A DNA stretch of 35,251 bases, from positions 1 to 35,251 of the forward strand of contig NZ_JADEWN010000068.1 of assembly GCF_015207655.1 (NCBI RefSeq). Reading direction: 5' to 3'. The notes below the pieces were generated by a model. It worked only from the letters and a program-made list of their open reading frames with translations, ran no database searches and was not told the DNA's origin. A program made the position numbers and the translations under genes. The DNA is from Gloeocapsopsis crepidinum LEGE 06123 (GTDB taxonomy: Bacteria > Cyanobacteriota > Cyanobacteriia > Cyanobacteriales > Chroococcidiopsidaceae). Of the stretch, positions 2,600-16,430 are shown piece by piece; the stretch's first letter is position 1, and each line of letters starts with the position of its first letter.

Positions 2600-2697
2600 A
2601 TCTATCTCGATCAAGTGATAAATTTTTGAAGAGCTGCTTTCAGCTGAGTCAATTTAATTAAATGTGAGATAGCCTTCTTTGTTGTATCAATAGGCAA

Positions 2698-2730: not shown

Positions 2731-4860
2731 TTAATGAGCTACTACGATTTCTTCATTCAATTCACTTTGCTCGATTGCTTCTTTGACTGCTCCTTTGACA
2801 CCTAACGCTGTGATGTTAAAATTACTGCCTGCTTTTTGTTTGTAGAAGGCAAGGTATCGTAACGCTTCATCAGAGATCGAGTTGAGGTCTTGCATATTCA
2901 GGACAACACCTTTTACTCCGTGGGCTTTCTCTAGTTCTTCCTTAAAATACTTCAACATACTCGGCTCTAAAGAACCAGTCAAATCGATCTTCGCTACTCC
3001 ATCGGTAACTTCGATTAAGTCAGCGTCAAAATCAACGCTAGCTGGCACTATCCGCACTCTGACTTTCATTTCTGCTTGGTCGGTAGGCAGTTTAATTGTC
3101 AGCGCTTCGGCATCAAAATCGGTATATTTGTGTCCATTAATCCATACTTCATCAATCCGAATGCTACCTGGTGGCAGAATATCTGGCTGCACTCGCAGGA
3201 TGTTATCTGGAAAACCTCCAGGCGTTGGCTTGAAGTAGAAATCCATAGGTTCTTTATTAATTAGCAAGTTGGTATAGACAGCCGCTAAGTAGCACAACTC
3301 AAACGAGTGATAACCTGCCATTGAGTGACTACCTTTACCACGTTCAGTCCCTAAAGCGTAGGGTTCTCCATTAGCCAAAACGTTAAAGTAAACACCGCCA
3401 GATTCAGTATCCAAGAACCATGCGTTATAAAAGGCAGCACCTTCGCGGGCAAACCGAATAAAATTAGGGTCTTGATAGACACCAGCCATAATGTAGTAGG
3501 CAAGAATTCCTTGTTCTTGTTGCCACCAAGCCTTGCGATCGTGCCAAACGAGTCGATGGAATTTTTCACCTGGGGCTAACACTCGTTCCATCATGTCATA
3601 CCAACCACCGCGCTGGCGATCGCAACCAACCGCAGGAATAACGTGACCGATCTTTTCCGCAAAAGTTTTGTACGTTTCTTTTGCCTTCAGGCTATGCATC
3701 CGCGTCAGATTCCAGGCAATCTTGAGATTATGACCAATAATTGACCGATTCTGCTGCACTGTTTGGTAGTCTTTTGACCAATCATCGTTAAACTTCTCTT
3801 GAACGAAAGGACTTGCGTCATAATCAGGAAAATGATTGGCGATCGTATCAAAAGTATATTCCAGAAAATCAGCGTATTCTTGTTCGCCCGTTGCTAGCCA
3901 GAGATTAATAAGATACGCAGGGGCGTGGTCGCCAACAGAGTTCCAATTCTTCTTAGCCCGATTGCGTCCGAGAGATTCACTATAAGCGCTAAGGGTAATC
4001 GGATCGATGTGGGAATAGTAGCCGCCTTTTTCACTTTTGTCTTTGAAGAAGCGGTGAAACAGGTTGACCGTTGCCTTAATATCATCTATCGTCCGGCGAT
4101 CGCCTGTGATTCGATATGTCTGGGTTGGACCTGCTAAGGCGTAAATCTGCTCATAGCAAGGAATCGCGTCATAGTCATCACCAAACTCAGAAGCAAAGAT
4201 TTTTTGCTCAGTACCGTCATCTTTAATATCAACAGCATGATACCAGTAGCAAATACCTTCGCTCTCATCACGGAAGCGCATATGTTCGCGCAAATATTTC
4301 GTACCTTTTTCCGCAGCTTCTAGGAAACGGTCTTCTCCAGTCAGTAAATAAGCTGAGGCAAAGCCGTAAACTAAACGGGAAATCGTATCAGTTTCTTGGC
4401 GTCCCGATTTTTGCTTATCACCTGTAATAGTTAAGTTAGTACGGTATTCAAAGTAGTCAATTTCACCGTCGCCAAACTCAGCTTTCAGGTAAAAGTTAGC
4501 TAATTCCCGTACCTGCTTAATCCACCAGTTTTGTTGTTCAAACAAATACTCATTCTCGCTACGACCTAGAAAAACAATGTGTTTAGCATCAAACTTGTAG
4601 TCACCGTTTTCTCCATCTGGGTAGAAAATACCGTAGGCAAATACAAATCGTCCTGGTACTAACATCTCGCGCATCTGGGCTGTAGCATCGCGATACGCCT
4701 CTCCTAAGTTGCGTACCAATTCGCCAAAGGCAGTTGAAGTTAAATGAACTAAGAACTCTCGGTCATCAGAAGTTTTTAAGCCAAAAGTGTCTTGAGTTTG
4801 GTCGAAGTGGGTTACATATCCAGCAATCAGATCTGAGAAAGTAAAGTCAATAGTATTCAT
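2731..4860 (-). CDS. AGE/cellobiose-epimerase-like (alpha/alpha)6-barrel protein fused to a C-terminal STAS domain
   Basis: The product has 709 residues. An N-terminal segment of about 100 residues (MNTIDFTFSDLIAGYVTHFD...) looks like a small beta domain. Residues of about 110-520 match the N-acylglucosamine 2-epimerase/cellobiose 2-epimerase barrel: ETDTISRLVYGFASAYLLTG, NRSIIGHNLKIAWNLTRM, VGCDRQRGGWYDMM and DRKAWWQQEQGILAYY carry the typical His, Trp and Glu positions. A link of about 80 residues follows, with beta-like sequence (SIRIDEVWINGHKYTDFD). Residues of about 616-705 form a STAS domain (VTDGVAKIDLTGSLEPSM, VKGVVLNMQDLNSISDEAL). The likely activity is sugar epimerisation or isomerisation; the STAS domain suggests control by an anti-sigma-like partner. 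In SpoIIAA-type STAS proteins a phosphorylatable Ser occupies the site where Glu665 appears to align here. The gene is downstream of glgX on the same strand but separated by 325 repeat-rich bases. Confidence 0.82.
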   Translation of the reverse strand: MNTIDFTFSDLIAGYVTHFDQTQDTFGLKTSDDREFLVHLTSTAFGELVRNLGEAYRDATAQMREMLVPGRFVFAYGIFYPDGENGDYKFDAKHIVFLGRSENEYLFEQQNWWIKQVRELANFYLKAEFGDGEIDYFEYRTNLTITGDKQKSGRQETDTISRLVYGFASAYLLTGEDRFLEAAEKGTKYLREHMRFRDESEGICYWYHAVDIKDDGTEQKIFASEFGDDYDAIPCYEQIYALAGPTQTYRITGDRRTIDDIKATVNLFHRFFKDKSEKGGYYSHIDPITLSAYSESLGRNRAKKNWNSVGDHAPAYLINLWLATGEQEYADFLEYTFDTIANHFPDYDASPFVQEKFNDDWSKDYQTVQQNRSIIGHNLKIAWNLTRMHSLKAKETYKTFAEKIGHVIPAVGCDRQRGGWYDMMERVLAPGEKFHRLVWHDRKAWWQQEQGILAYYIMAGVYQDPNFIRFAREGAAFYNAWFLDTESGGVYFNVLANGEPYALGTERGKGSHSMAGYHSFELCYLAAVYTNLLINKEPMDFYFKPTPGGFPDNILRVQPDILPPGSIRIDEVWINGHKYTDFDAEALTIKLPTDQAEMKVRVRIVPASVDFDADLIEVTDGVAKIDLTGSLEPSMLKYFKEELEKAHGVKGVVLNMQDLNSISDEALRYLAFYKQKAGSNFNITALGVKGAVKEAIEQSELNEEIVVAH

Positions 4861-4882
4861 AAGGTTTGCCTTAAAAGATGAA

Positions 4883-4937
4883 GGGGTCAGAGGACGCGCT
4901 TCGCGCAGACCTACGGTTCAGAGGTCAGAGGTTAGGG
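4883..4937. repeat. GGTCAGA-type heptamer array split by a palindromic insert
   Basis: Copies of AGAGGTC/GGTCAGA flank a block of about 25 bases (4894-4918) containing the hairpin CGCG-CTT-CGCG. The same heptamer family appears at 29772-29796 and, inverted, at 29910-29933. This is repeat within repeat in a spacer; no coding sense is seen. Confidence 0.55.
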
Positions 4938-5023
4938 CTATTTGGATTGAAGATCTGCGCTTCTCGTCTCCCGAATTCGACGAGGGGAAATGTAAGAAAG
5001 GGTGAGGAAAAACCAAAGCTTTC

Positions 5024-5100
5024 AAAGTCCCCCATATATGGGGAACCACTGCGATGCGGAGGTTTCCTCATTGAGTGCAAGTGGCGTGGATTTAGGGGGC
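5024..5100. repeat. Nested palindromic repeat (CCCCATATATGGGG with an inserted hairpin block)
   Basis: AAAGTCCCCC...GGGG (5024-5043) contains the perfect palindrome CCCCATATATGGGG (5030-5043). The usual continuation GGATTTAGGGGGC appears only at 5088-5100. Between them lies a block with its own pairing, CCACT (5046-5050) with AGTGG (5080-5084). This looks like one small palindromic element inserted into another. The whole spacer 4861-5185 holds repeats and no convincing gene. Confidence 0.5.
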
Positions 5101-5185
5101 TGCGAGTGCAGTTGCTTAACGATTCACACATTGATTCAGCAATGCCGAAAGAGTTTGACCGTCTGCGACTTTAGCCACCTCTTTC

Positions 5186-7279
5186 TTACTGAGAAATCAA
5201 CACAACAACGCTGCGATTTTGAACTGAGTAGGTGTTACCTGTAATCAGGGTTTCCTTACCTGAGTCTGCAATGTCTAAAGGAGAAGCTTGTGCGGTGTCT
5301 ACAACTCGATACCACTGTCTGCCTTCCACAGGTGGGATATCAAAATCAAGTGATTCCCAGTACATATTGCACATCACGTGAATATCGGCTTCACCGTTGA
5401 ATCCTCCCAACGTAAATGCTAGAACACGCGCGTTAGTGTCATTCCAACCAGGACTGTATAATCGGCAGCCGTGCCAGGAAATTTCGGCTAAGCCACGTTC
5501 ATTCACTGCACCTGTAGAGTAACGCCCGCGATGTAGAATCGAATGGCGTTTGCGGAAGTTGACGATCAACTTCCAGAAGCGGAACATATCGCTATTTTGA
5601 GTAACTAAGTTCCAATCGAACCAGCTAATCTCGTTATCTTGGCAGTAGGCGTTATTGTTGCCTTTTTGAGTGCGTCGTACTTCATCTCCCATCACAATCA
5701 TCGGTACGCCTTGGGAAAGGAGAAGAATCGTGGCGAAGTTCTTGATTTGGCGATCGCGCAGATCTTCCACCCAGCGATCGCTTGTTTCGCCCTCAAAACC
5801 GCAATTCCAGCTTAAATTTTCGTTGATGCCATCCTGATTGCCTTCACCATTCGCTTCGTTGTGTTTGTTGTTGTATGAAACTAAATCATTTAGCGTGAAA
5901 CCATCATGGGCGGTAATGAAATTGACACTATTAATTGGTAAGTGACCGTGACTTTGATAGAGGTCAGCGCTACCAGTCATTCGCGTAGCAACAGCACCGA
6001 TGATTCCAGGATCGCCTTTGACAAAGCGCCGAAGATCATCGCGATAGCGTCCGTTCCACTCCGCCCACCGATAACCAGGAAAATAGCCGATTTGATACAA
6101 TCCAGCTGCATCCCACGCCTCGGCAATGATTTTCGTATCAGCCAAGACTTCCGACAATTCGATATTCCAAATTACTGGTGGATATTGCAGCGGTGTTCCA
6201 TCTTGACCGCGTGATAAGACGGAACCTTCATCAAATCGGAAACCGTCAACGTGTAATTCTTGCACCCAGTATTCTAAAGACTCAAGAATCAGCTTTTCGG
6301 GAATCGGATGGTTGCAGTTAAACGTATTGCCGCAACCTGTGTAGTCGTAATAATACTGCTTATCTCCAGGAACCAAATAGTAGTAAATACTATTGTCGAT
6401 GCCTTTGAAGCAGAAGATGGGTCCCTGATGGTTGCCTTCATCAGTGTGGTTGAACACGACATCCAAGATGACTTCGATTCCAGCTTTATGCAAAGCTTTA
6501 ACCATGTCACGAAACTCTTTGACGTGCTGTCCTTCTTCTGGGTTAACACAATAACCTGTATGCGGAGCGAAGTAGCCCATAGTACTATAGCCCCAGTAGT
6601 TCTTGAGCAGCTTACCCTCAACTTCCCGCACTTCCGTGTCATCGAACTCAAATACAGGCATCAGTTCCACCGCTGTGACTCCCAACTCTTGGAGATAAGG
6701 AATCTTCTCAATAATTCCAGTGAAAGTTCCTGGATACTGGACACCAGAAGACGGCGACTTGGTGAACCCGCCAACGTGCATTTCGTAGATAATTGTTTCG
6801 CTCATCGGACGATTAAGCGGGCGATCGCCTTCCCAGTCATAATCTGATGTATCGATGACTACGCTGCGCATTGAGGTTGCAAGATTATCACCAGGTACGC
6901 AAGCATTACCCCGTTTCCAAAGCGTTTTGTTGTTTCCTTTGGCATATGGGTCAATCAGAACTTTGTCTTTGTCGAAGCGATGCCCTGCACTGCGATCGGG
7001 AGGACCATCTATCCGATAGGCATAATGCATTCCTGAGGGCAATCCTTTAACGTAAATGTGCCAGAAGTGGAAAGTTTTATTTACGTCTGGATCTAATTGA
7101 ATAATTTGTATTGGTGCTGGATCGTCATGCTCATCAAACAACAATAATTCAACTGACGTAGCATGTTCTGAAAAAACAGAAAAATTGACTCCATTATTAT
7201 CTGGAATGGCACCCAAAGGATGAGGGCTTCCCTTTTCTATTTGATATGTTGTTTGCGGCGCATCTATTGTTAAAGTCAT
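5186..7279 (-). CDS. glgX: Glycogen debranching enzyme, GlgX/isoamylase type (GH13)
   Basis: The product has 697 residues. An N-terminal CBM48-like beta domain (about 15-140; GVNFSVFSEHATSVELLLFD) is followed by a GH13 (beta/alpha)8 barrel and a C-terminal beta domain. Conserved GH13 regions are visible: DVVFNHTDEG (273-282), DGFRFD with the nucleophile Asp350, IIAEAWD with the acid/base Glu387, and FITAHDGF with the transition-state Asp459. Length and the QGVPMIVMGDEVRRTQKGNNNAYCQD stretch match bacterial GlgX, which cleaves alpha-1,6 branch points of phosphorylase-trimmed glycogen. The residues after the nucleophile read EGS rather than the LAS common in enterobacterial GlgX. The DJ-1 gene lies 26 bases upstream on the same strand, so the two may be cotranscribed. 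Confidence 0.93.
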   Translation of the reverse strand: MTLTIDAPQTTYQIEKGSPHPLGAIPDNNGVNFSVFSEHATSVELLLFDEHDDPAPIQIIQLDPDVNKTFHFWHIYVKGLPSGMHYAYRIDGPPDRSAGHRFDKDKVLIDPYAKGNNKTLWKRGNACVPGDNLATSMRSVVIDTSDYDWEGDRPLNRPMSETIIYEMHVGGFTKSPSSGVQYPGTFTGIIEKIPYLQELGVTAVELMPVFEFDDTEVREVEGKLLKNYWGYSTMGYFAPHTGYCVNPEEGQHVKEFRDMVKALHKAGIEVILDVVFNHTDEGNHQGPIFCFKGIDNSIYYYLVPGDKQYYYDYTGCGNTFNCNHPIPEKLILESLEYWVQELHVDGFRFDEGSVLSRGQDGTPLQYPPVIWNIELSEVLADTKIIAEAWDAAGLYQIGYFPGYRWAEWNGRYRDDLRRFVKGDPGIIGAVATRMTGSADLYQSHGHLPINSVNFITAHDGFTLNDLVSYNNKHNEANGEGNQDGINENLSWNCGFEGETSDRWVEDLRDRQIKNFATILLLSQGVPMIVMGDEVRRTQKGNNNAYCQDNEISWFDWNLVTQNSDMFRFWKLIVNFRKRHSILHRGRYSTGAVNERGLAEISWHGCRLYSPGWNDTNARVLAFTLGGFNGEADIHVMCNMYWESLDFDIPPVEGRQWYRVVDTAQASPLDIADSGKETLITGNTYSVQNRSVVVLISQ

Positions 7280-7305: not shown

Positions 7306-7872
7306 TTATGCTGCGAGCATTTCTATAATCTTTTTGGCAAACAGATGACAGTGAGCGCCTGTACGTCCTGTAACCAAATCCTCATCGACAACGACATCAC
7401 GATCAGTGTAAATAGCGCCCATATTGATAACATCGCCGTGCAAGTTATTGTGACAAGTAACGGGACGACCTCGCACCAATTCTGGTACAGGAGAAACTAG
7501 CCACATTCCATGACAAATAATTCCTTTGATGATATTTTTTTCGGCAAATGCTCGCTTGAGAAACTCCGTCGCTGGTGGGAGTTTATGAATATCATCTGTA
7601 TATCTGAGACGATCGGAGACAATGGCAGATGGCACAATGATCGCTGCATAACTTTTAAGTTCTTCATCGCTCATATCTTCAAAGCTTTCATTACATTCAA
7701 AGGGTGCATGATATTCATGTCCTTTAAAAGTGAGAGAAGGTTGACCCCATAAGCGAGTTAGAAAGTGGAGTTCTGCACCTTCTTCGGGAAAGCGATAATG
7801 GTAGTACCAAATCTCGTGTTCGTAAAAGTCGCTTTCTAGTAAGATGCCGATTTTTTTACCTTGAAGGTTCAT
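7306..7872 (-). CDS. DJ-1/PfpI-superfamily protein (small)
   Basis: The product has 188 residues from ATG 7872 (MNLQGKKIGILLESDFYEHE). A Rossmann-like beta-alpha start follows at once, and upstream in-frame sequence shows no conservation signs, so this start is preferred over one at 7968. The nucleophile elbow is KGIICHGMWL with Cys120, and the acidic partner is probably Glu13 in LLESDFYEHE. The family includes PfpI-like proteases, glyoxalase III and chaperone-type proteins; the substrate cannot be told. It lies 26 bases upstream of glgX. A decayed copy of residues of about 15-84 of this protein is present at 13035-13255, which ties this gene to the accessory cluster. Confidence 0.85.
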   Translation of the reverse strand: MNLQGKKIGILLESDFYEHEIWYYHYRFPEEGAELHFLTRLWGQPSLTFKGHEYHAPFECNESFEDMSDEELKSYAAIIVPSAIVSDRLRYTDDIHKLPPATEFLKRAFAEKNIIKGIICHGMWLVSPVPELVRGRPVTCHNNLHGDVINMGAIYTDRDVVVDEDLVTGRTGAHCHLFAKKIIEMLAA

Positions 7873-7971
7873 ATTCTGTTTTGTATTTTGGCTGAATTTA
7901 TGTGAATGTTTTTTTGTAGATATAGCGGTTGAATAGACCTTACACAAAAGTTTGAAAAAATGAATCACATT

Positions 7972-8105: not shown

Positions 8106-9566
8106 CTATTTAGTGCCTGCCAATTTTGAATGAATCAATTGTGGAATTTCACCATTACTACCAAATACATCAACGGCGATATCTAATGCTGTTTTGCCGT
8201 CGTGTCCTATGAGTTCTAATTTGGCTCCAGCGTTGATCAGAATTTCAGCACATTCGCTATACCCATGCCATAGGGCATCATGAAGTGGGGTATAACCATT
8301 AATGGGTCCCTGAACGTCAAGATCGATATCAGGATGTTCAACAAGCATTTTCAGAATCTCAGGATTGCCGTTGTAAGTTGCTTTATGGATGGGAGCACCC
8401 TTAAACACCCAATCTTCAACTCTGACTTTAGCGCCTGCTTTGAGAAGTTCTCTGACAATTTCTGTATGTCCGTCGCGGGCAGCAACTAATAGGGGAGTGT
8501 GTCCATCTAAGAAAGAATTCACATGAGGGTAGACGGTATTAACATCAGCTTGATTCTCGATTAATTGCTTAACTGTATCTAGATCTCCTTGATTGGTTGC
8601 TGCCATCACTTTCTGAGAGTCAATGCTTTCGCGTGTAGCTTTTCTACCTGCATCAATGATTTCTTGAATGACGATAAACTTCTGCTTCTCTTCGCCTTGA
8701 TTGACGTTAAGTTCAAAGTTAAGGTGATCTTCTAAGGTAAAGCCATAGTGGGTACTCAAATAGAGGTTTGCTCCTCGTTCAACAAGTAACCTTACCAATT
8801 CCGGCCACTTGTACCACAGAGCATCCATAATTGGGGTATGCCCCATTGTCGGCGTCACAGCATCAATAAATGCCCCAGCATCTAGTAGTAACTGAGCGAC
8901 TTCTACACTACCGCCTTGGCAAGCTTTATGTAAGGCAGTTGCTCCAGTTTTGCTGTCTGTCGTGAAAACATCTGCGCTAGCATTGAGCAACAATTTCGCC
9001 ATTGCAACATTGGCATGACAAGCTGCAGTCATTAATACAGTTAATCCATTGCCTGGATTGCGCGTATTAGGATCGGCACCCTGTTGCAGGAGGATCGTCA
9101 CTGTCTCTAGATCGTCATTTTCGACAGCTTCAATTAAACGCGATCGCATATCTCCCCGAAATGCCGCAATAATGGGCGATGGGTCGCAGTAAGATTTCCA
9201 TTTGACAATCTTGCCGTCGCGAATCTGCATCCAAGTGGCAAAAGTGATATCAAAGGTGAGTCCCGTTGCTTCAACAGTTGTAATGTCATGCACTGTGCCA
9301 AATGCCTGATCTCCTTGCACGACGAGATCGACGGGTTTGAAAACCTTGACTTGAGCAATGCGATCGCGGGTTTGAAAGGATTTCGTGACTTCCGCAACTC
9401 CGTAGGACGTACCAATCCAGGGAATGATATCGCTAACACCCTTGACTGGTTGAAGATTAATCCACTCGATATCGTCTGCTAGACAACTCATTGCGGTTGC
9501 ATAATCAGCTTGATCCAATGCCTTAAACCACTTCTCGGCGACTTGCTGTGTCTCTTCTTGACTCAT
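8106..9566 (-). CDS. SnoaL/NTF2-like domain fused to ankyrin repeats
   Basis: The product has 486 residues. Residues of about 1-130 form an NTF2-like SnoaL domain (QQVAEKWFKALDQADYATAMSCLADDIEWI; GTVHDITTVEATGLTFDITFATWMQIRDGKIVKWKSY). Residues of about 138-480 hold roughly eight to nine ankyrin repeats, for example DLETVTILLQQGADPNTR, GATALHKACQGGSVEVAQLLLDAGA and GHTPLLVAARDGHTEIVRELLKAGA. It has no signal peptide, so it is probably cytosolic. SnoaL folds bind or isomerise small hydrophobic molecules, while ankyrins mediate protein contacts, so an enzyme scaffold or sensor is possible. AAAGG lies 7 bases before the ATG. The GMC oxidoreductase gene ends 15 bases upstream, so an operon is likely. 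Confidence 0.88.
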   Translation of the reverse strand: MSQEETQQVAEKWFKALDQADYATAMSCLADDIEWINLQPVKGVSDIIPWIGTSYGVAEVTKSFQTRDRIAQVKVFKPVDLVVQGDQAFGTVHDITTVEATGLTFDITFATWMQIRDGKIVKWKSYCDPSPIIAAFRGDMRSRLIEAVENDDLETVTILLQQGADPNTRNPGNGLTVLMTAACHANVAMAKLLLNASADVFTTDSKTGATALHKACQGGSVEVAQLLLDAGAFIDAVTPTMGHTPIMDALWYKWPELVRLLVERGANLYLSTHYGFTLEDHLNFELNVNQGEEKQKFIVIQEIIDAGRKATRESIDSQKVMAATNQGDLDTVKQLIENQADVNTVYPHVNSFLDGHTPLLVAARDGHTEIVRELLKAGAKVRVEDWVFKGAPIHKATYNGNPEILKMLVEHPDIDLDVQGPINGYTPLHDALWHGYSECAEILINAGAKLELIGHDGKTALDIAVDVFGSNGEIPQLIHSKLAGTK

Positions 9567-9581
9567 GGTTGACCTTTACAA

Positions 9582-11087
9582 TTATGAATGTTTGATATCT
9601 TCAGCTAAAATCCGCTCCAGGGAACGTTCGGCGATCGCAGCGATTGTCAATGCCGGATTGACACAAGTACTAGACCCTGGAATTAATGCACCATCGACAA
9701 CATAGAGGTTTGGATGTCCTGCCACGCGCCCGCAATCATCGCAAACTTGACCCATGCACGCGCCCCCCAATTGATGACCAGTTGTTTGCGAGGCAATAGG
9801 AGGCACTTCACCACCGTTTTTTTCACTCAGTAGTTCGGCTAAGTACTTTGCAGCTTCTTTCGCTTTGGGGTCGCTGGCGAAATTTAATTGAACTGTATCC
9901 GAAGCAGAGTCGTAGCTAAAGTTGCCACGATAAGGAGTCATCGCAAATACAAAGCTACCAATGACATTCTTTTGGGGAAAATCCTGTTCAAATCTGGGCA
10001 ATGGCGCCCGCATCATCACGCAGGGCAAAATCGGATTTTCATAATTGAGAACAGCGATCGCGCCAGGATCACCTAAATGCGGATTGGTTGTTTCTGAGAG
10101 ATGAGTGCGGAAGGCATAGGTATCGCCATCGTTACCAAATCCCTCACCCAGATGATGATTGATTTTTGGTAAATCGCCCTTGGCTTTAGCTTTAATCAAA
10201 AGTTCGCAAGTTCCCATCACGCCAGCAGCCATAAACAGGTACTGGCAAGTTAATGTTTGCTGGTCAATGATTTCACCCGAATCATCAATAATGTTTACCG
10301 CAACTGCATACCCACCTTCGGGTTTTTCAGCCACTTTGGTTACAAGATGATGCGTGCGAATTTCAACTGCACCCGTTTCCTCAGCTAACTTCAGGTAGTT
10401 TTGATCCAGAGTTTTCTTACCACCGCTGTTGTTACCAAACCAAAATTCAGCGGCAATTACCGAGGGAACCCTTTCTCCTGCAATTTCCTCGCGGACAATG
10501 TCCCAATCCACTCCCATAGGAAATCGAGTAATGCCATTAGTTAAACCATTAGTTGATTCAACATAAGGCAATCCTGACTTGAGTGCATGTTGTTCTAACA
10601 CCTTTAGTCCCAGGTAATATTCACTTTCTAGAACGTCATCTGGAATAGGTGCACTGCCAATAATAGAGTGTACTCGCGGAAAATAAATGGTATCCATCTC
10701 TTCATAGCTAATCGCGCTAGGAAACACCTGCTCAAATAGCTTTTGCGGTGGCTGAATTAGTATTCCTCCATAAGCTAGAGAACCACCACCAACACCACAA
10801 CCCACGAGAAACTTATAGTTTCCTCTTTCCAGTACTTCAAGTACTCCTGTATATTTGTCAATCGGAATACCTTCATAACCTGGGGTTTTTGTAACTGTAT
10901 TCAGCCACTCTGCCCGCCCATCTGGATTTCTAAATGTTGCAAAAGTCGCATTCTTAGTCGGGTCTTCAATCGTCCAGCGTCGTCCTCTTTCTAGTACTAC
11001 TGTTGCAATTTCAGCTTGCCCCAAACGCAATGCAGCTACAGCCCCACCAAAGCCACTGCCAATTACAATTGCTTTAATATCAGTCAT
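9582..11087 (-). CDS. GMC-family FAD oxidoreductase (cholesterol-oxidase-like)
   Basis: The product has 501 residues. It opens with the FAD-binding motif VIGSGFGGAVAALRL (Gly10-x-Gly-x-x-Gly) and VVLERGRRW with the ribose-binding Glu. GCGVGGGSLAYGG is the GMC signature region. The C-terminus carries HQLGGACMG, NLYVVDGALIPGSSTCVNPALTIAAIAERS with the conserved His and Asn of the active site. There is no signal peptide or BBE domain. Such enzymes oxidise alcohols to carbonyls with O2 or another acceptor. CGRVAGHPNLYVVD and the overall length resemble the cholesterol oxidase/GMC branch, but the alcohol is unknown. It is the first gene of a pair with the SnoaL-ankyrin gene; a 332-base spacer precedes it. 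Confidence 0.9.
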   Translation of the reverse strand: MTDIKAIVIGSGFGGAVAALRLGQAEIATVVLERGRRWTIEDPTKNATFATFRNPDGRAEWLNTVTKTPGYEGIPIDKYTGVLEVLERGNYKFLVGCGVGGGSLAYGGILIQPPQKLFEQVFPSAISYEEMDTIYFPRVHSIIGSAPIPDDVLESEYYLGLKVLEQHALKSGLPYVESTNGLTNGITRFPMGVDWDIVREEIAGERVPSVIAAEFWFGNNSGGKKTLDQNYLKLAEETGAVEIRTHHLVTKVAEKPEGGYAVAVNIIDDSGEIIDQQTLTCQYLFMAAGVMGTCELLIKAKAKGDLPKINHHLGEGFGNDGDTYAFRTHLSETTNPHLGDPGAIAVLNYENPILPCVMMRAPLPRFEQDFPQKNVIGSFVFAMTPYRGNFSYDSASDTVQLNFASDPKAKEAAKYLAELLSEKNGGEVPPIASQTTGHQLGGACMGQVCDDCGRVAGHPNLYVVDGALIPGSSTCVNPALTIAAIAERSLERILAEDIKHS

Positions 11088-11419
11088 AATTTTTGTCTCA
11101 CTTATGTTGCAGCCATCATCGTCTAAATCAATCGGGATGAGTCTTTAATAGGTGCGACTACTAAGTAGGTGGGCAAATTATTGATCGCACGTTTCTGCTG
11201 ATTAATGATTAATCTTTGCTCCACTAACCATTGACTATTGACCGATAACAGCCCTTGAATGATGCTTACTTTCACCCAATTTTTTATTTAATTGTTTAGA
11301 GATTTAAATTTTTCCATAAACTGGATATCGCTGGCTTTGTTATCTCTAAAAAAAAAATTAATCAATCCTTTTAACAACAAATCAAAGAGTTTATAGCAGG
11401 TTTAGAAGAATCAAAAGTG
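11088..11419. other. Gene-free spacer upstream of the GMC gene
   Basis: It is AT-rich with no convincing frame. It holds the short palindrome CTACTAAGTAG (about 11157-11168) and the left arm of a 54-base inverted repeat (11207-11260). It must contain the promoter of the GMC/ankyrin pair, unless transcription reads through from the half-VOC gene. No clear -35/-10 pair could be assigned. Confidence 0.5.
11207..11260 (+). repeat. Left arm of diverged 54-base inverted repeat
   Basis: Compared base by base with the reverse complement of 17233-17286, 39 of 54 positions agree. This includes an unbroken run TATTGACCGATAACA and the shared TTGCTC. The arms lie on either side of the 11.4-16.4 kb gene block. 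They may be remnants of a mobile-element end, or members of a common intergenic repeat family. Confidence 0.4.
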
Positions 11420-11626
11420 TTAATTCTTCTCTTCGATTAACTCGATTCTAACGTCATCTGTCTCTATTAATAAAATCCGAGTGTCAAATTCTGGAAACTC
11501 TCTTCTGACGACTTCCTCAAAACCTAATTGCTCTTTATACCACTTTGCAGTTTCTTCTAAATTAAATACTGCAATAGAAACAACAAGATTCTTGACAGCA
11601 GCTATAACTTCACTCTGATTTATCAT
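11420..11626 (-). CDS. Half-length VOC (glyoxalase/dioxygenase fold) protein
   Basis: The product has 68 residues from ATG 11626; a TTG six codons upstream is less likely. It covers just one beta-alpha-beta-beta-beta module: VVSIAVFNLEETAKWYKEQLGFEEVVRREFPEFDTRILLIETDDVRIELIEEKN. The intact VOC protein at 13264-13716 shows the same phrases (KWYQEKLGYQVFTRKDFPDFGTRIAVLE, RLEIIEQNN) and then continues with a second module that is missing here. The stop falls exactly where the second module should begin, and no continuation was found downstream in any frame. It may be a truncated relic or a dimerising single-module protein. Confidence 0.6.
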   Translation of the reverse strand: MINQSEVIAAVKNLVVSIAVFNLEETAKWYKEQLGFEEVVRREFPEFDTRILLIETDDVRIELIEEKN

Positions 11627-11662
11627 AATTGTCGTCCAAATCAAACACTATGCTTTAGATTG

Positions 11663-12358
11663 CTAGCGGGATTCTGGTCCAATAATCCAGTGCTCATCTG
11701 TAACAAAGCTGTGAGCATATTTGAGTTCAACAAAGTTTGCTAAATCGGCAGCAGATTCTTTGTTTTCATCTGACTCCAGCATTTTTTCAATAGCTTGGAT
11801 GTCGTCGAACCACAACTGCGAAACACAATCTAAAATTGATTCACCAACGGTATAGAACGAGTCGCGTACGTGACATTGAATGTAACGTCGTAAACCAGGA
11901 AGCTTGAGGTCTTTAGGTCCATGAATTTCTAAGCTGTACTTCCGAAATTCTTCTAACGGCATTCCAGCTTTACGCTTAACCAGAGCGAATATTTTGATCA
12001 TGGTAGAGTCCTTTTTAAGTGGCTCTCCTTCCATCAAGACGTGAGTGTTTGTATCTAACACTACAGTGCGCCAGAAAGCTGCCCAATTAGGTTCGTCGAG
12101 ACGGGCACCTTCTAAGAACTCTTTAGATTGCAGTGAAGCTAACTGCTCTTTTTCATTTTCTAACCATATTTCAGCGACACCACTAAAAAGAGGATCTTGT
12201 GGTTCTGAACCAAATGGAAGGCGAGAATCAATCAGGTAACGCTTGATCTGAGGAATCTTGCTAGCGTACTTAACGGCATGAACATTAATCCAGTAGTTCT
12301 GAAATTCCTTTTCACTCATGCCTGGCTTAGGGTGGGCAAATATAAGTTGATGAATCAT
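11663..12358 (-). CDS. Tandem EthD-domain protein
   Basis: The product has 231 residues from ATG 12358, which has AGAGG five bases upstream. A TTG at 12424 overlapping the upstream stop is the alternative. There are two EthD-type ferredoxin-like (dimeric alpha/beta barrel) domains. The first, of about 1-115, has HPKPGMSEKEFQNYWINVHA; the second, of about 120-225, has ALVKRKAGMPLEEFRKYSLEIHGP. The 'F..YW...H' pattern is the family mark. EthD proteins assist ether-degrading P450s, and relatives include polyketide cyclases and dehydratases, so this may act on a hydrophobic intermediate made by the neighbouring enzymes. It follows the SnoaL gene by 62 bases. Confidence 0.82.
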   Translation of the reverse strand: MIHQLIFAHPKPGMSEKEFQNYWINVHAVKYASKIPQIKRYLIDSRLPFGSEPQDPLFSGVAEIWLENEKEQLASLQSKEFLEGARLDEPNWAAFWRTVVLDTNTHVLMEGEPLKKDSTMIKIFALVKRKAGMPLEEFRKYSLEIHGPKDLKLPGLRRYIQCHVRDSFYTVGESILDCVSQLWFDDIQAIEKMLESDENKESAADLANFVELKYAHSFVTDEHWIIGPESR

Positions 12359-12420
12359 AGAAACCTCTTGAAGTTGTTCGCTATCCTGATAGGTGGCTTT
12401 AACTGGAACATCAAACTCAA

Positions 12421-13068
12421 TCAACCTGCTGGGCTATTCGGATCGAGGATGAGAGTCCGACTTTTAAATTTCCAATTTCTACCAATTTTTATTATTTGAT
12501 CCTTGTAAACTCCGGTTCTAATAACAGCGGCAGGGTCATTCTTGATATTCATGGCAATGATGTAGCACCCCCCTTTAGCACCTTGAGTATTCGGTTCTAT
12601 AATCAGGTCATTGATCCAGTGCCGAGTTGTTTGCACATCTGGAAAAGTTTTGTAAACACGAAGTAATTCTTGAGTTCCTGTTGCTTTGATAACAACGTCC
12701 CCATTGGCTCTGACAATAGAAAATGTGCCGTCGGGTGTGAATGTAGCTGCCCAATTAGTACCAGGATCGCCAGGAATAAGGTTACTGAGTCCATCGAGGG
12801 CATAAAAATGACGGGCGTTGAGAGCTTGAATTGCAAGGATATCCTTGGATGAAAGTAGCACTTTAGGTGTCTGGGCAAAGATTTTACGAGGATGAATACC
12901 GCCCAAAATCAGCACCGATCCAGATCCCACTATCAGCAGCATTCTTCGTCGTGTCACTTTCTGTTGTCGTTTGTTCTGGTTATCAAAGTCTTGATGAATC
13001 ACGTCCTTCTTTGATGAAGATTGTGGAATGCCGAGTATAGACAAGATTGGCTCAAATGATAGGAGCAT
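12421..13068 (-). CDS. SnoaL-like protein with twin-arginine-type signal
   Basis: A basic segment with a twin-arginine-like motif (VTRRRMLLIVGSGSVLILGG) and a probable cleavage after KIFAQ precede a SnoaL/NTF2-like domain (LLSSKDILAIQALNARHFYALDGL to GRNWKFKSRTLIL), so export is likely. The start is uncertain. The frame is open to GTG 13164, but bases above about 13035 are a decayed DJ-1 gene read in another frame, so the first 40 or so residues of the long form are not ancestral. ATG 13068 is given; GTG 13002 (MIHQDFDNQNKRQQKVTRRR) is a good alternative and still keeps the full signal. The EthD gene follows closely, so the two are probably cotranscribed. Confidence 0.75.
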   Translation of the reverse strand: MLLSFEPILSILGIPQSSSKKDVIHQDFDNQNKRQQKVTRRRMLLIVGSGSVLILGGIHPRKIFAQTPKVLLSSKDILAIQALNARHFYALDGLSNLIPGDPGTNWAATFTPDGTFSIVRANGDVVIKATGTQELLRVYKTFPDVQTTRHWINDLIIEPNTQGAKGGCYIIAMNIKNDPAAVIRTGVYKDQIIKIGRNWKFKSRTLILDPNSPAG

Positions 13069-13255
13069 ATTTCTAAAGTTCTTTGTCGTTGATGTCCTCA
13101 AAACTTTCGCAATCCTCGAAAGGAGCATGATATTTGTGACGTTTATAAGGTCACTATTTTTCACTCTATAGGCAGGTTAGTAAGGAAGTTTGGCTCCTTC
13201 TGGAAAGCGATTAATAGTAGTACTAAATCTCGTGTTCGTAAAAATTCACTGCGGC
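13035..13255 (-). pseudogene. Decayed DJ-1/PfpI gene remnant
   Basis: Reading the minus strand in shifting frames gives NFYEHEI*YYY, then RFPEGAKLPY*, then RHKYHAPFEDCESFEDINDKEL*KYAPII*. Each piece matches the intact DJ-1 protein at 7306-7872 in order: DFYEHEIWYYHYRFPEEGAELHF, GHEYHAPFECNESFEDMSDEEL and KSYAAII (its residues of about 15-82). There are at least two frameshifts and several stops, and both ends are missing, including the Cys elbow. It sits between the VOC stop and the SnoaL gene, and its sequence now supplies in-frame upstream codons to the SnoaL frame. Confidence 0.8.
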
Positions 13256-13263
13256 ATCAGCGT

Positions 13264-13716
13264 TTAATGCCTATGCTTGATTTCATTTAGATGTTCTTTA
13301 GCTTCAGGCATCAATTCAACAAACTGAATCAGATTGCCATCACAGTCTTCAATAAACTGGAAGCTTAACTTGAGATCCTCATCTACTCGTTTTACCCAGA
13401 CTGTTTCAATACCTTTGCTTTTCAGTTCTGCAATCTTGGCATCGAGATTATCTACGAGAAGGGCAAATTGCGAAATACCATTAATGTTGGTGTGAGCAGG
13501 GGGATGATGACGTGGTGGTGATATTGGAACTGAGTTGTTTTGCTCGATGATCTCAAGTCTGAAGTCATTTAACTCTAAAACGGCAATTCGCGTTCCAAAA
13601 TCTGGAAAATCTTTTCTTGTAAATACTTGATATCCGAGCTTCTCCTGATACCATTTGACAGATCTATCAATGTTTGGGGTTGATAAGCTGACATAAAACA
13701 GTCTAAAGGGGAGCAT
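13264..13716 (-). CDS. VOC-family (glyoxalase/bleomycin-resistance fold) protein
   Basis: The product has 150 residues with two beta-alpha-beta-beta-beta modules. Module 1 (about 5-60) is FYVSLSTPNIDRSVKWYQEKLGYQVFTRKDFPDFGTRIAVLE; module 2 (about 78-135) is ISQFALLVDNLDAKIAELKSKGIETVW then FQFIEDCDGNLIQFVELM. The terminal FIEDCDGNLIQFVE with its Glu is the usual metal-ligand position. A His-rich link (PPRHHPPAHTN) joins the modules. Such proteins act on dicarbonyls, aromatic diols or antibiotics; the substrate is unknown. AAGGA lies 7 bases before ATG 13716. That ribosome site is part of a relic of the SnoaL coding sequence (13722-13808). Confidence 0.87.
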   Translation of the reverse strand: MLPFRLFYVSLSTPNIDRSVKWYQEKLGYQVFTRKDFPDFGTRIAVLELNDFRLEIIEQNNSVPISPPRHHPPAHTNINGISQFALLVDNLDAKIAELKSKGIETVWVKRVDEDLKLSFQFIEDCDGNLIQFVELMPEAKEHLNEIKHRH

Positions 13717-13721
13717 ATAGT

Positions 13722-13808
13722 ATCCTTGGATGAAAGTGATGCTTTAGGCATGTGGACGGAGATTTAAATAAGGACGAAGACCACTTAAAACCAGCGCTGA
13801 GAGTCTGG
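13722..13808 (-). pseudogene. Remnant of a second SnoaL gene (signal-peptide region)
   Basis: ATCCTTGGATGAAAGT at 13722-13737 is identical to 12841-12856 inside the SnoaL gene, and similarity continues for about 85 bases at very roughly 70 per cent. Translated on the minus strand it gives ALVLSGLRPYLNLRP and MPKASLSSKDT in two frames, matching VLILGGIHPRKIFAQ and TPKVLLSSKDI of the SnoaL protein. The copy is frameshifted and stops where the VOC gene begins. It fills the whole gap between the ThDP-enzyme gene and the VOC gene. Confidence 0.7.
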
Positions 13809-13810
13809 TT

Positions 13811-15562
13811 CTACTGTCCACACCTAACCCCAATCATCTCTGGATGCACATTACCTTCTAAAACCAGGTCAATGAGAAATGGTCCCTTATGTGACAAAGC
13901 TTGCTTGATAGCCGGAGCAATCTCGTCTGGTTTTTCAACTCGGACAGCTTCAACACTCAGCGATCGCGCTATCTCATCAAAGCGGATAGCAGGTTTAGAC
14001 AAATCAAAACTCAGCGGAAAATCATGCTCTGGGATACTCTGCTCTTGCCAGTAAGCTTGGATATTCAACTGCAATATGCGGTAAGATCTATTGTTGCAGA
14101 CAACAAACTTAGCATCTACATTGTGGCGAGCCGCTGTCCAAAGTGCTTGAATGGTGTACATTGCTCCGCCGTCACCTGTAAAGCCAATCACTGTCTTGTC
14201 AGGATTGGCAATTTTGGCACCAATCGCTCCTGGTATGCCCACGCCTAAGGAACCACCACGAGTTAGGAAGTAGTGCCCTGGTTTAGTTGTTGGTCGATAG
14301 CGCGTCACCGCAGGTGAATTGGTTAAAGCTTCATCGAAGATAATTGCATCCTCTGGTAGTTGCGTTGCCAGTTCTGCCATAAAGCGAGACAAATATAGAG
14401 GTACCGCATCCTGAAGGTGGCGATCGCGTTCTAACTCACTTTCGCGTTTAGCTGCTTTCGCTGTAGCAATTTCAGCAGTTCGAGCTTTAGCCTCTGCTTT
14501 CTGTTCTGCTGTCATTATTGCTTCTAGGTTGGTTGCCAACTTTGCAAGTGTCAGTTTCGGATCGCTGACCATCCCAATATCAACAGGGTGATTTTTAGCA
14601 ATCTCATAGGCATTGAGATCGATGTGCATCACCTTAGCCTCAGAAGCGAAGATATTACCTAGTTCAGGAAAGACCTCTGGTAAAAGATAAGTTCCACAAA
14701 CTAAATTGACATCTCCCTTGGATACGATAGGTAAGCTTTGAGCGCCAAACATATGCCCTGTTGCACCTTGATATAGGGAATGGACATGGCTCATATTCAA
14801 TTCTCCTGCATCGGCTTCCCACACTTCTGCACCTAAGAGTTCAGCAACGCGAGTTAGTTCATCTTGTGCGCCAGAAAACGCCACTCCATCGCCCACAAAT
14901 ATCATCGGCTTTTGAGCCGCTGCCAACATCGTCGCTCCAGCCTTGAGTAAATCCTCGTCGGGCACTACTTTGGTAGAAGGGAACGAAGTTGGTCTTACCT
15001 CTTCAACCACAGGCGCATCTAAAATATCTTGCGGTAAGCAAACATACACAGGTCCCATGGGAGGAGTTGCAGCAATCTTGATCGCTCGTCGCAGCACGCG
15101 CAGAAGCGAGGATGGTTCCATCACCATCGTTGACCATTTGGTCACTGGTTCAGCGAAAGCTACTAAGTCAGCTGCCATTTGAGCATCCATTGCCTGATAC
15201 TTAATTCCAGCATCTCCACCGATAACCACTAGTGGCGAGTGACCCCGCTTTGCTTGGTAAAGTGCTCCGATCGCATTCCCTAATCCAGGACTACTGTGGA
15301 TCTGAACTACAGTAGGTTTTTGGGTTGCCCGCGCGTAACCATCGGCTGCCATTACTGCAACTGTTTCTTGCAATGTCAAGATATACTTCAAATCTGGGTA
15401 TGCCCGCAGGGCATCTAGAAAACCTTGCTCGACAGTACCAGGGTTGCCAAAAATGTAACGAATACCATCTGCCAGAAATTGCTCTAAAATTGCAAAGCAT
15501 CCAGTTTTGCGTGTCATGAATTCTGCCTTGTGCATGGTCTGTAGCTCTTTCAGCGTTTTCAT
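13811..15562 (-). CDS. Thiamine-diphosphate-dependent decarboxylase/carboligase (acetolactate-synthase/benzoylformate-decarboxylase-like)
   Basis: The product has 583 residues with the three-domain ThDP fold. The N-terminal Pyr domain has IFGNPGTVEQGFLDAL and LTLQETVAVMAADGYAR with the cofactor-activating Glu66. The middle domain is about 195-345. The C-terminal PP domain carries the ThDP/Mg motif GDGGAMYTIQALWTAARHN to FVVCNNRSYRIL from about 461. His89 (VVQIHSSPGLGNAIGAL) fits the active-site His70 of benzoylformate decarboxylase, but the second His of that enzyme (His281) has no counterpart in VNLVCGTYLLPEVF. The reaction is thus a decarboxylation or carboligation of a 2-oxo acid, not assignable further. 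A charged Ala/Glu/Lys helix (about 350-385) is inserted. It starts 4 bases after the large DJ-1 gene, so they are one operon. Confidence 0.85.
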   Translation of the reverse strand: MKTLKELQTMHKAEFMTRKTGCFAILEQFLADGIRYIFGNPGTVEQGFLDALRAYPDLKYILTLQETVAVMAADGYARATQKPTVVQIHSSPGLGNAIGALYQAKRGHSPLVVIGGDAGIKYQAMDAQMAADLVAFAEPVTKWSTMVMEPSSLLRVLRRAIKIAATPPMGPVYVCLPQDILDAPVVEEVRPTSFPSTKVVPDEDLLKAGATMLAAAQKPMIFVGDGVAFSGAQDELTRVAELLGAEVWEADAGELNMSHVHSLYQGATGHMFGAQSLPIVSKGDVNLVCGTYLLPEVFPELGNIFASEAKVMHIDLNAYEIAKNHPVDIGMVSDPKLTLAKLATNLEAIMTAEQKAEAKARTAEIATAKAAKRESELERDRHLQDAVPLYLSRFMAELATQLPEDAIIFDEALTNSPAVTRYRPTTKPGHYFLTRGGSLGVGIPGAIGAKIANPDKTVIGFTGDGGAMYTIQALWTAARHNVDAKFVVCNNRSYRILQLNIQAYWQEQSIPEHDFPLSFDLSKPAIRFDEIARSLSVEAVRVEKPDEIAPAIKQALSHKGPFLIDLVLEGNVHPEMIGVRCGQ

Positions 15563-15566
15563 TGGG

Positions 15567-16430
15567 CTACCACCCGTAACGAGTCAGCCCTGTTTCCAGC
15601 ACTTGCACTAATATCCGACCACACTCACGAGAAGATGCAGTTGAGCGGCTGGTAATGAAAGGATAATCAACAAGCACAGATGTCTGATGCCCTACATTGC
15701 CGATGAAAGCACCATCTGATCCAACAGCATCGCGGAGAATGAATTCTAGCGGGTAGAAAGGAGGACCAAAATTGATATAGCCATCTCCAAACCCCTTGTT
15801 AGTACCATCAATTGCATGATGACCTTCAAATCCCGTACCATCCAGGTAGTCATAATCAATCGGATGCCCAGTGACGTGCTTGCCCCAAATCAAGCTCTTT
15901 TTCTCTCTAAAGTCTCGTGCAAATGCTAAGCAGGCAACACCATAGCATTCAGCAGCAATTGGTTTTTGTAACTTGTAAAAACCTAAGATAAGGTCATGCA
16001 ATCTCTGGTTATTAGCAAGATCGACCATTGCCCCGCTACCACCAACAATCGCGAGCGCATCATATTCGCTGAGTTCCTCGGCGATAATCTTATCGATTTG
16101 TTTATAATAGGCTTCCATGTCTCTGAGATAAGTCGCAGAACTAGGGTAGGCTCGTCGAGGAAACCAGTCAGCAAGGCTTTTAGGATTATCTAGTCGCTCT
16201 GAATCGTTGATTTTGCGTGTTTTTTCTGCCATTTCTTCTGACGTAACCGACCGTCCCAAAGGCGGATCGATGTAGCCTGGTGCGCAACTGACTGATAGTG
16301 GAGTTGGTTTCTTTCCGTTCGGGGTCAAGAACGTAATATCGTATCCCGCTGAATCACATGCTTCTAAGGGACCAATCAGTTCTTCGCCCCAATATCCCCA
16401 CTCTGATAAAACAAATAAAATCTTTTTCAC
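15567..16430 (-). CDS. Large DJ-1/PfpI (Hsp31/glyoxalase-III-like) protein
   Basis: The product has 287 residues and starts at GTG 16430, with AAAGGAG about 10 bases upstream. It begins MKKILFVLSEWGYWGEELIGPLE with the acidic partner near Glu17. It has an inserted helical region with IDPPLGRSVTSEEMAEKT, then YDALAIVGGSGAMVDLANN and the nucleophile elbow PIAAECYGVACLA with Cys162. The size and the extra 'PL.R..T..E' region resemble the Hsp31-like branch, whose members act as glyoxalase III or protein deglycase. It is the first gene of the cluster and is followed at 4 bases by the ThDP enzyme. A 17-base palindrome lies about 100 bases upstream and may control the operon. Confidence 0.85.
   Translation of the reverse strand: MKKILFVLSEWGYWGEELIGPLEACDSAGYDITFLTPNGKKPTPLSVSCAPGYIDPPLGRSVTSEEMAEKTRKINDSERLDNPKSLADWFPRRAYPSSATYLRDMEAYYKQIDKIIAEELSEYDALAIVGGSGAMVDLANNQRLHDLILGFYKLQKPIAAECYGVACLAFARDFREKKSLIWGKHVTGHPIDYDYLDGTGFEGHHAIDGTNKGFGDGYINFGPPFYPLEFILRDAVGSDGAFIGNVGHQTSVLVDYPFITSRSTASSRECGRILVQVLETGLTRYGW

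Follow-up and report, generated by a model that had tools for sequence, protein, structure and literature searches.

A conserved gene cluster of Gloeocapsopsis crepidinum that joins a DJ-1/ThDP module to an icfG-type alpha-glucan module and may encode a carbonyl pathway

On the minus strand of a 35,251-nucleotide stretch of Gloeocapsopsis crepidinum LEGE 06123 (contig NZ_JADEWN010000068.1, hereafter the window), a row of genes runs from a large DJ-1 protein through a thiamine diphosphate (ThDP) enzyme, a VOC protein, a SnoaL-like protein with a signal of the twin-arginine translocation (Tat) type, a tandem EthD protein, a truncated VOC open reading frame (ORF), a GMC oxidoreductase, a SnoaL domain fused to ankyrin repeats, a small PfpI protein and the glycogen debranching enzyme GlgX to a fusion of an AGE-type barrel with a STAS domain, here called AGE::STAS. 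The locus raises the question whether such different proteins serve one purpose, and which. The answer that we put forward, with our confidence about evenly divided for and against it, is that positions 16430-2731 hold one functional metabolic cluster, an alpha-glucan-fed carbonyl pathway on an icfG-type module, probably biosynthetic, whose reactions, direction and product we infer. An initial annotation had let the cluster end at 8106, which is too early, as PfpI, GlgX and AGE::STAS are part of the same conserved cluster. The host genome assembly has 5.67 Mb in 150 contigs and a completeness of 100.

The gene neighbourhood was compared over 87 loci (57 found by searching a genome collection for the ThDP protein, 20 taken from other genomes, nine plasmid records and the window), which were merged to 81 at a ThDP identity of at least 98%. 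Nine of 12 plasmid matches are covered, those left out (H8-H10) being from Streptomyces and equal in identity to H7, and two ThDP matches in genome G009 were not covered at full flank. Presence was counted on stop-to-stop ORFs, with profiles that came either from the loci under study or from a single plasmid protein. In 79 of the 81 loci the large DJ-1 gene is no more than 10 kb away from the ThDP gene, and the two loci without it (L044 and L076) are cut at a contig end, the ThDP match starting at base 190 and base 3, respectively. In 73 of these 79 loci DJ-1 is directly upstream of ThDP on the same strand, with an ORF gap below 700 bases. Within the same 10 kb, any SnoaL gene is found in 65 of 81 loci, PfpI in 48, AGE in 47, any VOC in 42, any GMC in 37, GlgX in 33, EthD in 26 and SnoaL-ankyrin in 17 (weakly in L122); among the 56 loci with a flank of at least 16 kb the numbers are 44 for SnoaL, 39 for AGE, 34 for PfpI, 30 each for GMC and VOC, 27 for GlgX, 18 for EthD and 10 for SnoaL-ankyrin. 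By simple arithmetic, one gene per 5.7-Mb genome lands in a 20-kb stretch in about 0.4% of cases, and as a control, eight genes from the flanks of the window were found in no locus except the window. Three loci (L047, L048 and L079) have the window's gene set in near-identical order, and by the same profiles three of the 56 (L035, L112 and L128) lack all four of the EthD, SnoaL, VOC and GMC families, though in L128 RefSeq names a VOC protein about 9 kb past ThDP. In Streptomyces, an NTF2-type gene and an ankyrin gene stand side by side without being fused.

The genes are also inherited together. In a single evenly drawn sample of 291 cyanobacterial genomes, DJ-1 occurs in nine (E at most 1e-60) and ThDP in eight (E at most 1e-120), all within the nine with DJ-1 (hypergeometric probability 8e-15); AGE is present in 25 (E at most 1e-60), including eight of the nine (8e-9), and EthD in two (E 1e-40). 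Every one of the nine DJ-1 genomes has ThDP in the same cluster, weakly in G182 (333 bits) and with a GMC gene in between in G125. Conserved gene order was the test that the initial annotation had named for its cluster, and the pairing in 79 of 81 loci and in nine of nine cyanobacterial genomes bears it out and clearly rules out homologues scattered without a neighbourhood. The protein distances of eight other families track those of ThDP, with Spearman correlations from 0.31 (AGE) to 0.82 (SnoaL-ankyrin), and the observed correlation was reached in none of 500 permutations for DJ-1, PfpI, GlgX, EthD, SnoaL-ankyrin, SnoaLx2 and VOC6, and in one of 500 for AGE. The ratio of non-synonymous to synonymous substitution rates (dN/dS) is 0.03-0.10 where dS is estimable, several dS values being above 1 and near saturation, for DJ-1, ThDP, EthD, GMC, SnoaL-ankyrin, PfpI, GlgX and AGE, and these eight cluster genes are under purifying selection.

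The distribution is sporadic and wide. Phyla were counted from records other than metagenome-assembled genomes, those of the genome-collection records being taken from organism names, and Chlorobiaceae, Opitutales and other metagenome-assembled records were given less weight. The DJ-1/ThDP pair occurs in genomes of Cyanobacteriota, Planctomycetota, Desulfobacterota and Pseudomonadota, and on plasmids of Actinomycetota, Deinococcota, Bacteroidota, Pseudomonadota and Cyanobacteriota; accessory SnoaL, VOC, EthD and GMC genes recur around it in at least seven phyla. Genome G003 has three clusters, and G013 and G033 have two each, with differing accessory genes. Complete plasmid records of Streptomyces, Deinococcus, Runella and Gemmobacter carry the DJ-1/ThDP genes and the PfpI, GlgX and AGE genes head to tail, and GlgE, GlgB, GlgA, TreS or maltokinase lies near some plasmid clusters. 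Two Streptomyces plasmids have, in this order, DJ-1, ThDP, PfpI, AGE, STAS, GlgX, STAS, a kinase-type protein, SpoIIE, MinD, GlgE and GlgB; in Streptomyces NBC_01766 a glycogen synthase follows further on, and in Runella rosea (L130) a glycogen synthase is directly upstream. On the Streptomyces and Deinococcus plasmids L127, L129, L133, L136 and L137 the cluster runs on into STAS, SpoIIE and MinD/ParA genes, with an anti-sigma-type kinase, GlgE and GlgB in addition in Streptomyces, and the Runella plasmid has, between GMC and PfpI, seven genes whose annotation is ester cyclase or NTF2 family. Carriage of DJ-1 by phages was ruled out, as the phage collection held no match at E 1e-30.

The seven genes that the initial annotation had placed on one strand are intact, on the minus strand and at the positions that it gave, as judged by the ORF list and Pfam; the eight coding units and two relics that it had counted are rather these seven and one truncated VOC ORF of 68 codons (11420..11626), at a position that a VOC gene occupies in relatives (G003, L115, and G033, L123, have one between EthD and GMC). 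The second supposed relic is at most a 45-nt scrap (13721..13765, minus strand) similar to part of the Tat-SnoaL gene, a direct repeat with 12840-12884 at 78%. The first gene of the cluster encodes the large DJ-1 protein of 287 residues (15567..16430, minus strand, as are all genes below; Pfam ThiJ_like/DJ-1_PfpI), and the second the ThDP enzyme, a 583-residue ORF (13811..15562) with its probable start at residue 16 (15517). ThDP orthologues mostly begin there, and their commonest ORF length is 568 residues (20 of 64). The gap of 4 bases that had been reported between DJ-1 and ThDP thus applies to the longest ORF and would be 49 bases with the start used in orthologues, and the gap of 15 bases between GMC and SnoaL-ankyrin is correct.

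The candidate catalytic residues of DJ-1, ThDP and PfpI are well kept, over 78 orthologues and the window for DJ-1 and ThDP, and over 47 and the window for PfpI. The AlphaFold2 model of the large DJ-1 protein (predicted local distance difference test, pLDDT, 84.4) matches APC35852, SAV0551, Candida Glx3 and Hsp31 in Foldseek, and E17, C162 and H189 are conserved in at least 97% of sequences. It has the fold of the glyoxalase III/Hsp31 proteins SAV0551 and Candida Glx3 and, in E17-C162-H189, candidates for the Glu, the Cys nucleophile and the His of glyoxalase III, an enzyme that turns methylglyoxal into lactate without glutathione, but it is only about 20% identical to them and falls far under the cut-offs of the DJ-1 subfamilies. 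The ThDP enzyme has all three domains, the catalytic Glu and the GDG...N motif, and E66, H89, G463-D464-G465 and N491 are likewise conserved in at least 97%. Its best match in the PDB is benzoylformate decarboxylase (MdlC; 6a50, E 3e-61), with which the LQE Glu and the (L/I)HS His align, residues that we take to have their known roles in that decarboxylase, but it falls short of the cut-off in each of the 25 NCBIfam models shown (PRK07092.1, 306.3 against 493 bits). In the VOC protein (13264..13716; 150 residues; ORF and Pfam) some of the positions that usually hold metal ligands appear to be replaced, as read from the sequence; in the more frequent VOC6 family, by contrast, E57, H82 and E130 are conserved. 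It is followed by Tat-SnoaL (12421..13164; signal RRRMLL; ORF and Pfam) and by the tandem EthD protein of 231 residues (11663..12358), whose ORF opens at 12424 and whose likely ATG is at 12358. The GMC oxidoreductase (9582..11087; Pfam) matches cholesterol oxidase along its full length (E 1.7e-84), and the regions of the His and Asn motifs, presumably catalytic, align; it scores 121.7 bits against the cut-off of 850 for the NF058674 cholesterol oxidase model. SnoaL-ankyrin (8106..9566; Pfam) ends this half, and the small PfpI/DJ-1 protein (7306..7875; ORF opening at 7968), which is deglycase-like and has C121-H122 conserved in at least 97%, begins the other.

Some relatives have other genes as well. 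A compact picocyanobacterial form (Prochlorococcus/Synechococcus; L067, L071, L073, L074 and L077) has GlgX, AGE::STAS, a TPR protein, DJ-1, ThDP, two SnoaL genes and VOC, with a protein of about 545 residues on the opposite strand. In L131, L037, L116, L121 and L132, small Nif11-like proteins are encoded in pairs next to the EthD and GMC genes, and RefSeq names those of L131 natural product precursors. Some clusters (L045, L046, L049, L083, L117 and L122) have genes for a CoxS-like [2Fe-2S] subunit and an XdhC-like protein, named from reading of the sequence, which suggests a molybdenum aldehyde oxidase.

The alpha-glucan half begins with PfpI and consists further of GlgX (5186..7279) and the 709-residue AGE::STAS (2731..4860). 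GlgX scores 725.5 bits against the TIGR02100 cut-off of 640.9; a second copy over the cut-off was sought across the genome and none was found, the seven other matches being below it. For AGE::STAS there is no Pfam or NCBIfam match at E 0.001. Its structure model has a mean pLDDT of 82.9; an N-terminal beta domain is followed by an (alpha/alpha)6 barrel that Foldseek matches to cellobiose 2-epimerase and glucose-2-epimerase (E 4e-14 to 5e-14; 3wkf, E 3.6e-14) and by a C-terminus (about 2731-3018) that matches STAS proteins of the SpoIIAA type (E 3.5e-4; Pfam STAS E 0.01, under the cut-off). On plasmids RefSeq calls most homologues 'AGE family epimerase/isomerase' and in one record 'N-acyl-D-glucosamine 2-epimerase'. 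The HxxE motif is catalytic in AGE and cellobiose 2-epimerases. AGE::STAS shares the barrel of that family but has the extra N-terminal domain, the C-terminal STAS and a Lys for the Glu of HxxE: its GHNLK aligns with GHAIE of 8bry, so that K380 replaces the Glu of GHxxE, and this Lys is invariant in 21 sequences and present in at least 97% of a 47-row alignment.

This half has a known relative. Among cyanobacteria, 13 AGE stretches come from genomes with no DJ-1 match (L142-L153 and L161), and 11 of them have the order PfpI-AGE-STAS-GlgX-STAS, with both RsbW and SpoIIE in eight, RsbW alone in two and neither in one (L145); the remaining two (L151 and L152) have a fused AGE beside GlgX. We take slr1854 of Synechocystis sp. 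PCC 6803 to be PfpI-like. The icfG region of this organism (slr1852-slr1862) holds AGE (Slr1855), STAS (Slr1856) and GlgX (Slr1857) (PMC8670252), and slr1854, a gsp18-type gene, is listed in PMC3726282 as a butanol-induced general stress protein. The kinase Slr1861, the phosphatase IcfG and the STAS protein Slr1859 share one operon; Slr1861 phosphorylates Slr1856 and Slr1859, IcfG dephosphorylates Slr1856, and mutants of this carbon-regulation operon have carbon-dependent growth defects (PMC12329169). The layout of the DJ-1-free cyanobacteria fits the Synechocystis region, and GlgX and AGE are together in the window too (2731-7279). On gene content and published description, the PfpI-GlgX-AGE::STAS half corresponds to the icfG cluster. 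The two differ in that GlgX precedes AGE in the window, STAS is fused to AGE with an Asp at the phospho-site, the cluster has no separate STAS, RsbW or SpoIIE gene, and seven genes of the DJ-1/ThDP half are added. No PP2C/SpoIIE phosphatase and no RsbW-type kinase is found anywhere in the window; four SpoIIE genes over the cut-off are present elsewhere in the genome, and the four stretches around them, one of which starts at a contig end, yielded neither RsbW nor STAS by the profiles used.

The fusion of STAS to AGE can be followed in a midpoint-rooted FastTree phylogeny of 63 AGE proteins, from which nine loci were left out as duplicates or continuations, together with AGE ORFs shorter than 520 residues or below 600 bits. 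The 28 AGE proteins in which a fused STAS was detected fall into a single clade (local support 0.875), to which L037 and L079 also belong; these two look unfused, their stretches ending inside the gene. None of the 30 loci of this clade has a separate STAS, RsbW or SpoIIE gene of at least 60 bits in the stretches read; outside it, a separate STAS is found in 22 of 33 loci. The phospho-serine position of SpoIIAA is Ser in all 43 rows of separate STAS domains (the duplicates L033/L125, L129/L136 and L127/L137 included), and in the fused domains it is Ser in eight of 28, Asp in nine, among them the window, Glu in three, Thr in three, and five other residues once each. The simple reading of these sequences is one fusion followed by a loss of phospho-control in most members, which may have changed how the enzyme is regulated. 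With STAS captured by AGE, the phospho-serine mostly lost and no kinase or phosphatase genes alongside, this suggests that the AGE module may have been freed from partner-switch control.

How the two halves could work together can be outlined. PfpI, GlgX and AGE::STAS (module A) would descend from an icfG-type alpha-glucan module. By debranching glycogen, GlgX yields linear glucans, and the AGE-type enzyme would act on a sugar or malto-oligosaccharide at its reducing end. Module B would be the DJ-1/ThDP core with exchangeable SnoaL, VOC, EthD and GMC genes, where the ThDP enzyme might decarboxylate a 2-oxo acid or ligate carbon to carbon on a glucan-derived carbonyl compound, the large DJ-1 protein might hydrate or isomerise such a compound, and the accessory enzymes would modify the resulting small product. 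That the cluster is carbonyl-centred, as the initial annotation had proposed, fits the folds of the glyoxalase III-like DJ-1, the benzoylformate-decarboxylase-like ThDP enzyme and VOC, with the reactions remaining conjectural. Its suggestion of one exported step is weak, as the Tat signal is not conserved and is clear in four of the nine Tat-SnoaL sequences inspected. That the cluster is an unrecognised one does not hold for the alpha-glucan half, which it had missed and which is the counterpart of Synechocystis icfG. It had not recognised the cluster as that of scytonemin, which agrees with our scan. The scytonemin cluster has an acetolactate-synthase-like ThDP enzyme with a ScyB-like dehydrogenase beside it; a ThDP enzyme is common to both, but there is no ScyB-like dehydrogenase among the Pfam matches of the scanned cluster proteins, and the window cluster is not a member.

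A number of observations weigh against the pathway that we propose. Neither AGE nor GlgX is within 10 kb of ThDP in 31 of 81 loci (16 of the 56 with a flank of at least 16 kb), so that module B is able to stand apart from module A; AGE is found without DJ-1 in 17 of its 25 cyanobacterial genomes, two of which (G286 and G292) have the fused form, and the distance correlation between ThDP and AGE is the weakest of those tested. GlgX, being single-copy, may be just a housekeeping enzyme, and whether AGE::STAS has ordinary epimerase activity is uncertain, given that it has Lys where HxxE has Glu. The window VOC appears from its sequence to be without the metal ligands that are usual in the family, and it has a higher dN/dS, 0.16-0.19 with saturated dS; that of Tat-SnoaL is 0.19-0.26, which means a weaker constraint. 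In G001 (L126), a sister genome of the same genus, the ThDP gene is divided between two frames, while the first VOC and Tat-SnoaL are cut short and run together; this cluster may be decaying, or there may be an assembly fault. A Pfam scan of the window proteins gave no ABC or MFS exporter in the cluster, and Ser is still retained in the eight fused STAS domains mentioned above.

The alternative that survives best, which we find possible but rather unlikely, is that the cluster serves reactive-carbonyl detoxification and repair: DJ-1, PfpI and VOC would clear or mend dicarbonyl damage from sugar storage and stress, the ThDP enzyme and GMC would consume aldehydes, and GlgX and AGE would be present since storage and carbonyl stress coincide. 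The glyoxalase III-like fold of DJ-1, the deglycase-like PfpI and the presence of VOC in 42 of 81 loci agree with this, as do two antiporters, one of the cation:proton type that lies with a TrkA-C protein close to the copy in Streptomyces NBC_01766 and one close to that of Deinococcus, and the butanol-induced stress protein slr1854 of the icfG region (PMC3726282). However, detoxification has no obvious need for a cholesterol-oxidase-like GMC, for EthD or for the seven ester cyclase/NTF2 genes of Runella, and clusters with differing accessory sets in one genome would be unexpected. Because the accessory genes are exchangeable and two or three different clusters occur in one genome, we favour the biosynthesis of a product family over simple detoxification.

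Less probable still, and in our view improbable, is that the genes are held together by shared regulation or as a mobile island, the glucan genes and the carbonyl enzymes travelling together as useful under the same condition while acting on separate substrates. That the modules are apart in many genomes, that the cluster is found on plasmids and that its occurrence is sporadic, nine of 291, would all suit such an island, but the distances of the families that follow ThDP in the permutations, and the position of DJ-1 immediately ahead of ThDP in 73 of the 79 loci, speak against it. A sensory or regulatory cluster, where AGE::STAS and ankyrin-SnoaL would bind metabolites or partners with little flux, could draw on the STAS and ankyrin domains, on icfG being a carbon-regulation operon (PMC12329169) and on an ion channel gene adjoining the cluster in four related genomes, the window's included, but is very improbable, with the candidate catalytic residues of ThDP, DJ-1 and PfpI conserved in at least 97% and the STAS phospho-site gone from most fused proteins.

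This channel, a GLIC-like pentameric ligand-gated ion channel (1559-2614, minus strand; PDB GLIC, E about 1e-74), is directly downstream of AGE::STAS and at the same place in G001, G003 and G033. As a core part of the cluster it was ruled out, since 15 of 20 further cluster-carrying genomes, including those of L033, L047, L048 and L079, gave no match at E 1e-8. The window also holds a CpcD-linker reductase and a phosphoribulokinase-family gene, both in keeping with a cyanobacterial origin, as are the named cyanobacteria among its nearest ThDP loci. Rfam at the gathering threshold gave no match, thus no known RNA element; promoter-like sites were not in excess (24 against a shuffle mean of 30.6), and terminator-like sites were hardly above the shuffles (15 against a mean of 12.8, standard deviation 3.5).

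If the alpha-glucan-fed carbonyl pathway is real, it points to a small-molecule product tied to bacterial glycogen. Going further, and tentatively, the cluster could stand for a mobile and so far undescribed class of alpha-glucan-derived small-molecule pathways, found in seven phyla or more and built from a DJ-1/ThDP core to which tailoring genes are added interchangeably. This class would have recruited the icfG module and, in one lineage that takes in the window, fused the STAS regulator into the enzyme and freed it from phosphorylation control; this wider picture is rather doubtful. Searches of the open-licence literature, as judged from their listings, gave papers on icfG and none on the DJ-1/ThDP half. 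The relation to icfG gives the cluster a known relative. icfG has been studied for its regulatory proteins, and the passages of those papers that were consulted leave the presence of an AGE-type enzyme, PfpI and GlgX unexplained. The same genes joined to a conserved DJ-1/ThDP module in distant phyla would give a testable metabolic answer for the icfG enzymes, and the fused lineage would be an example of a partner-switch regulator captured by an enzyme, with its phosphorylation site decaying.

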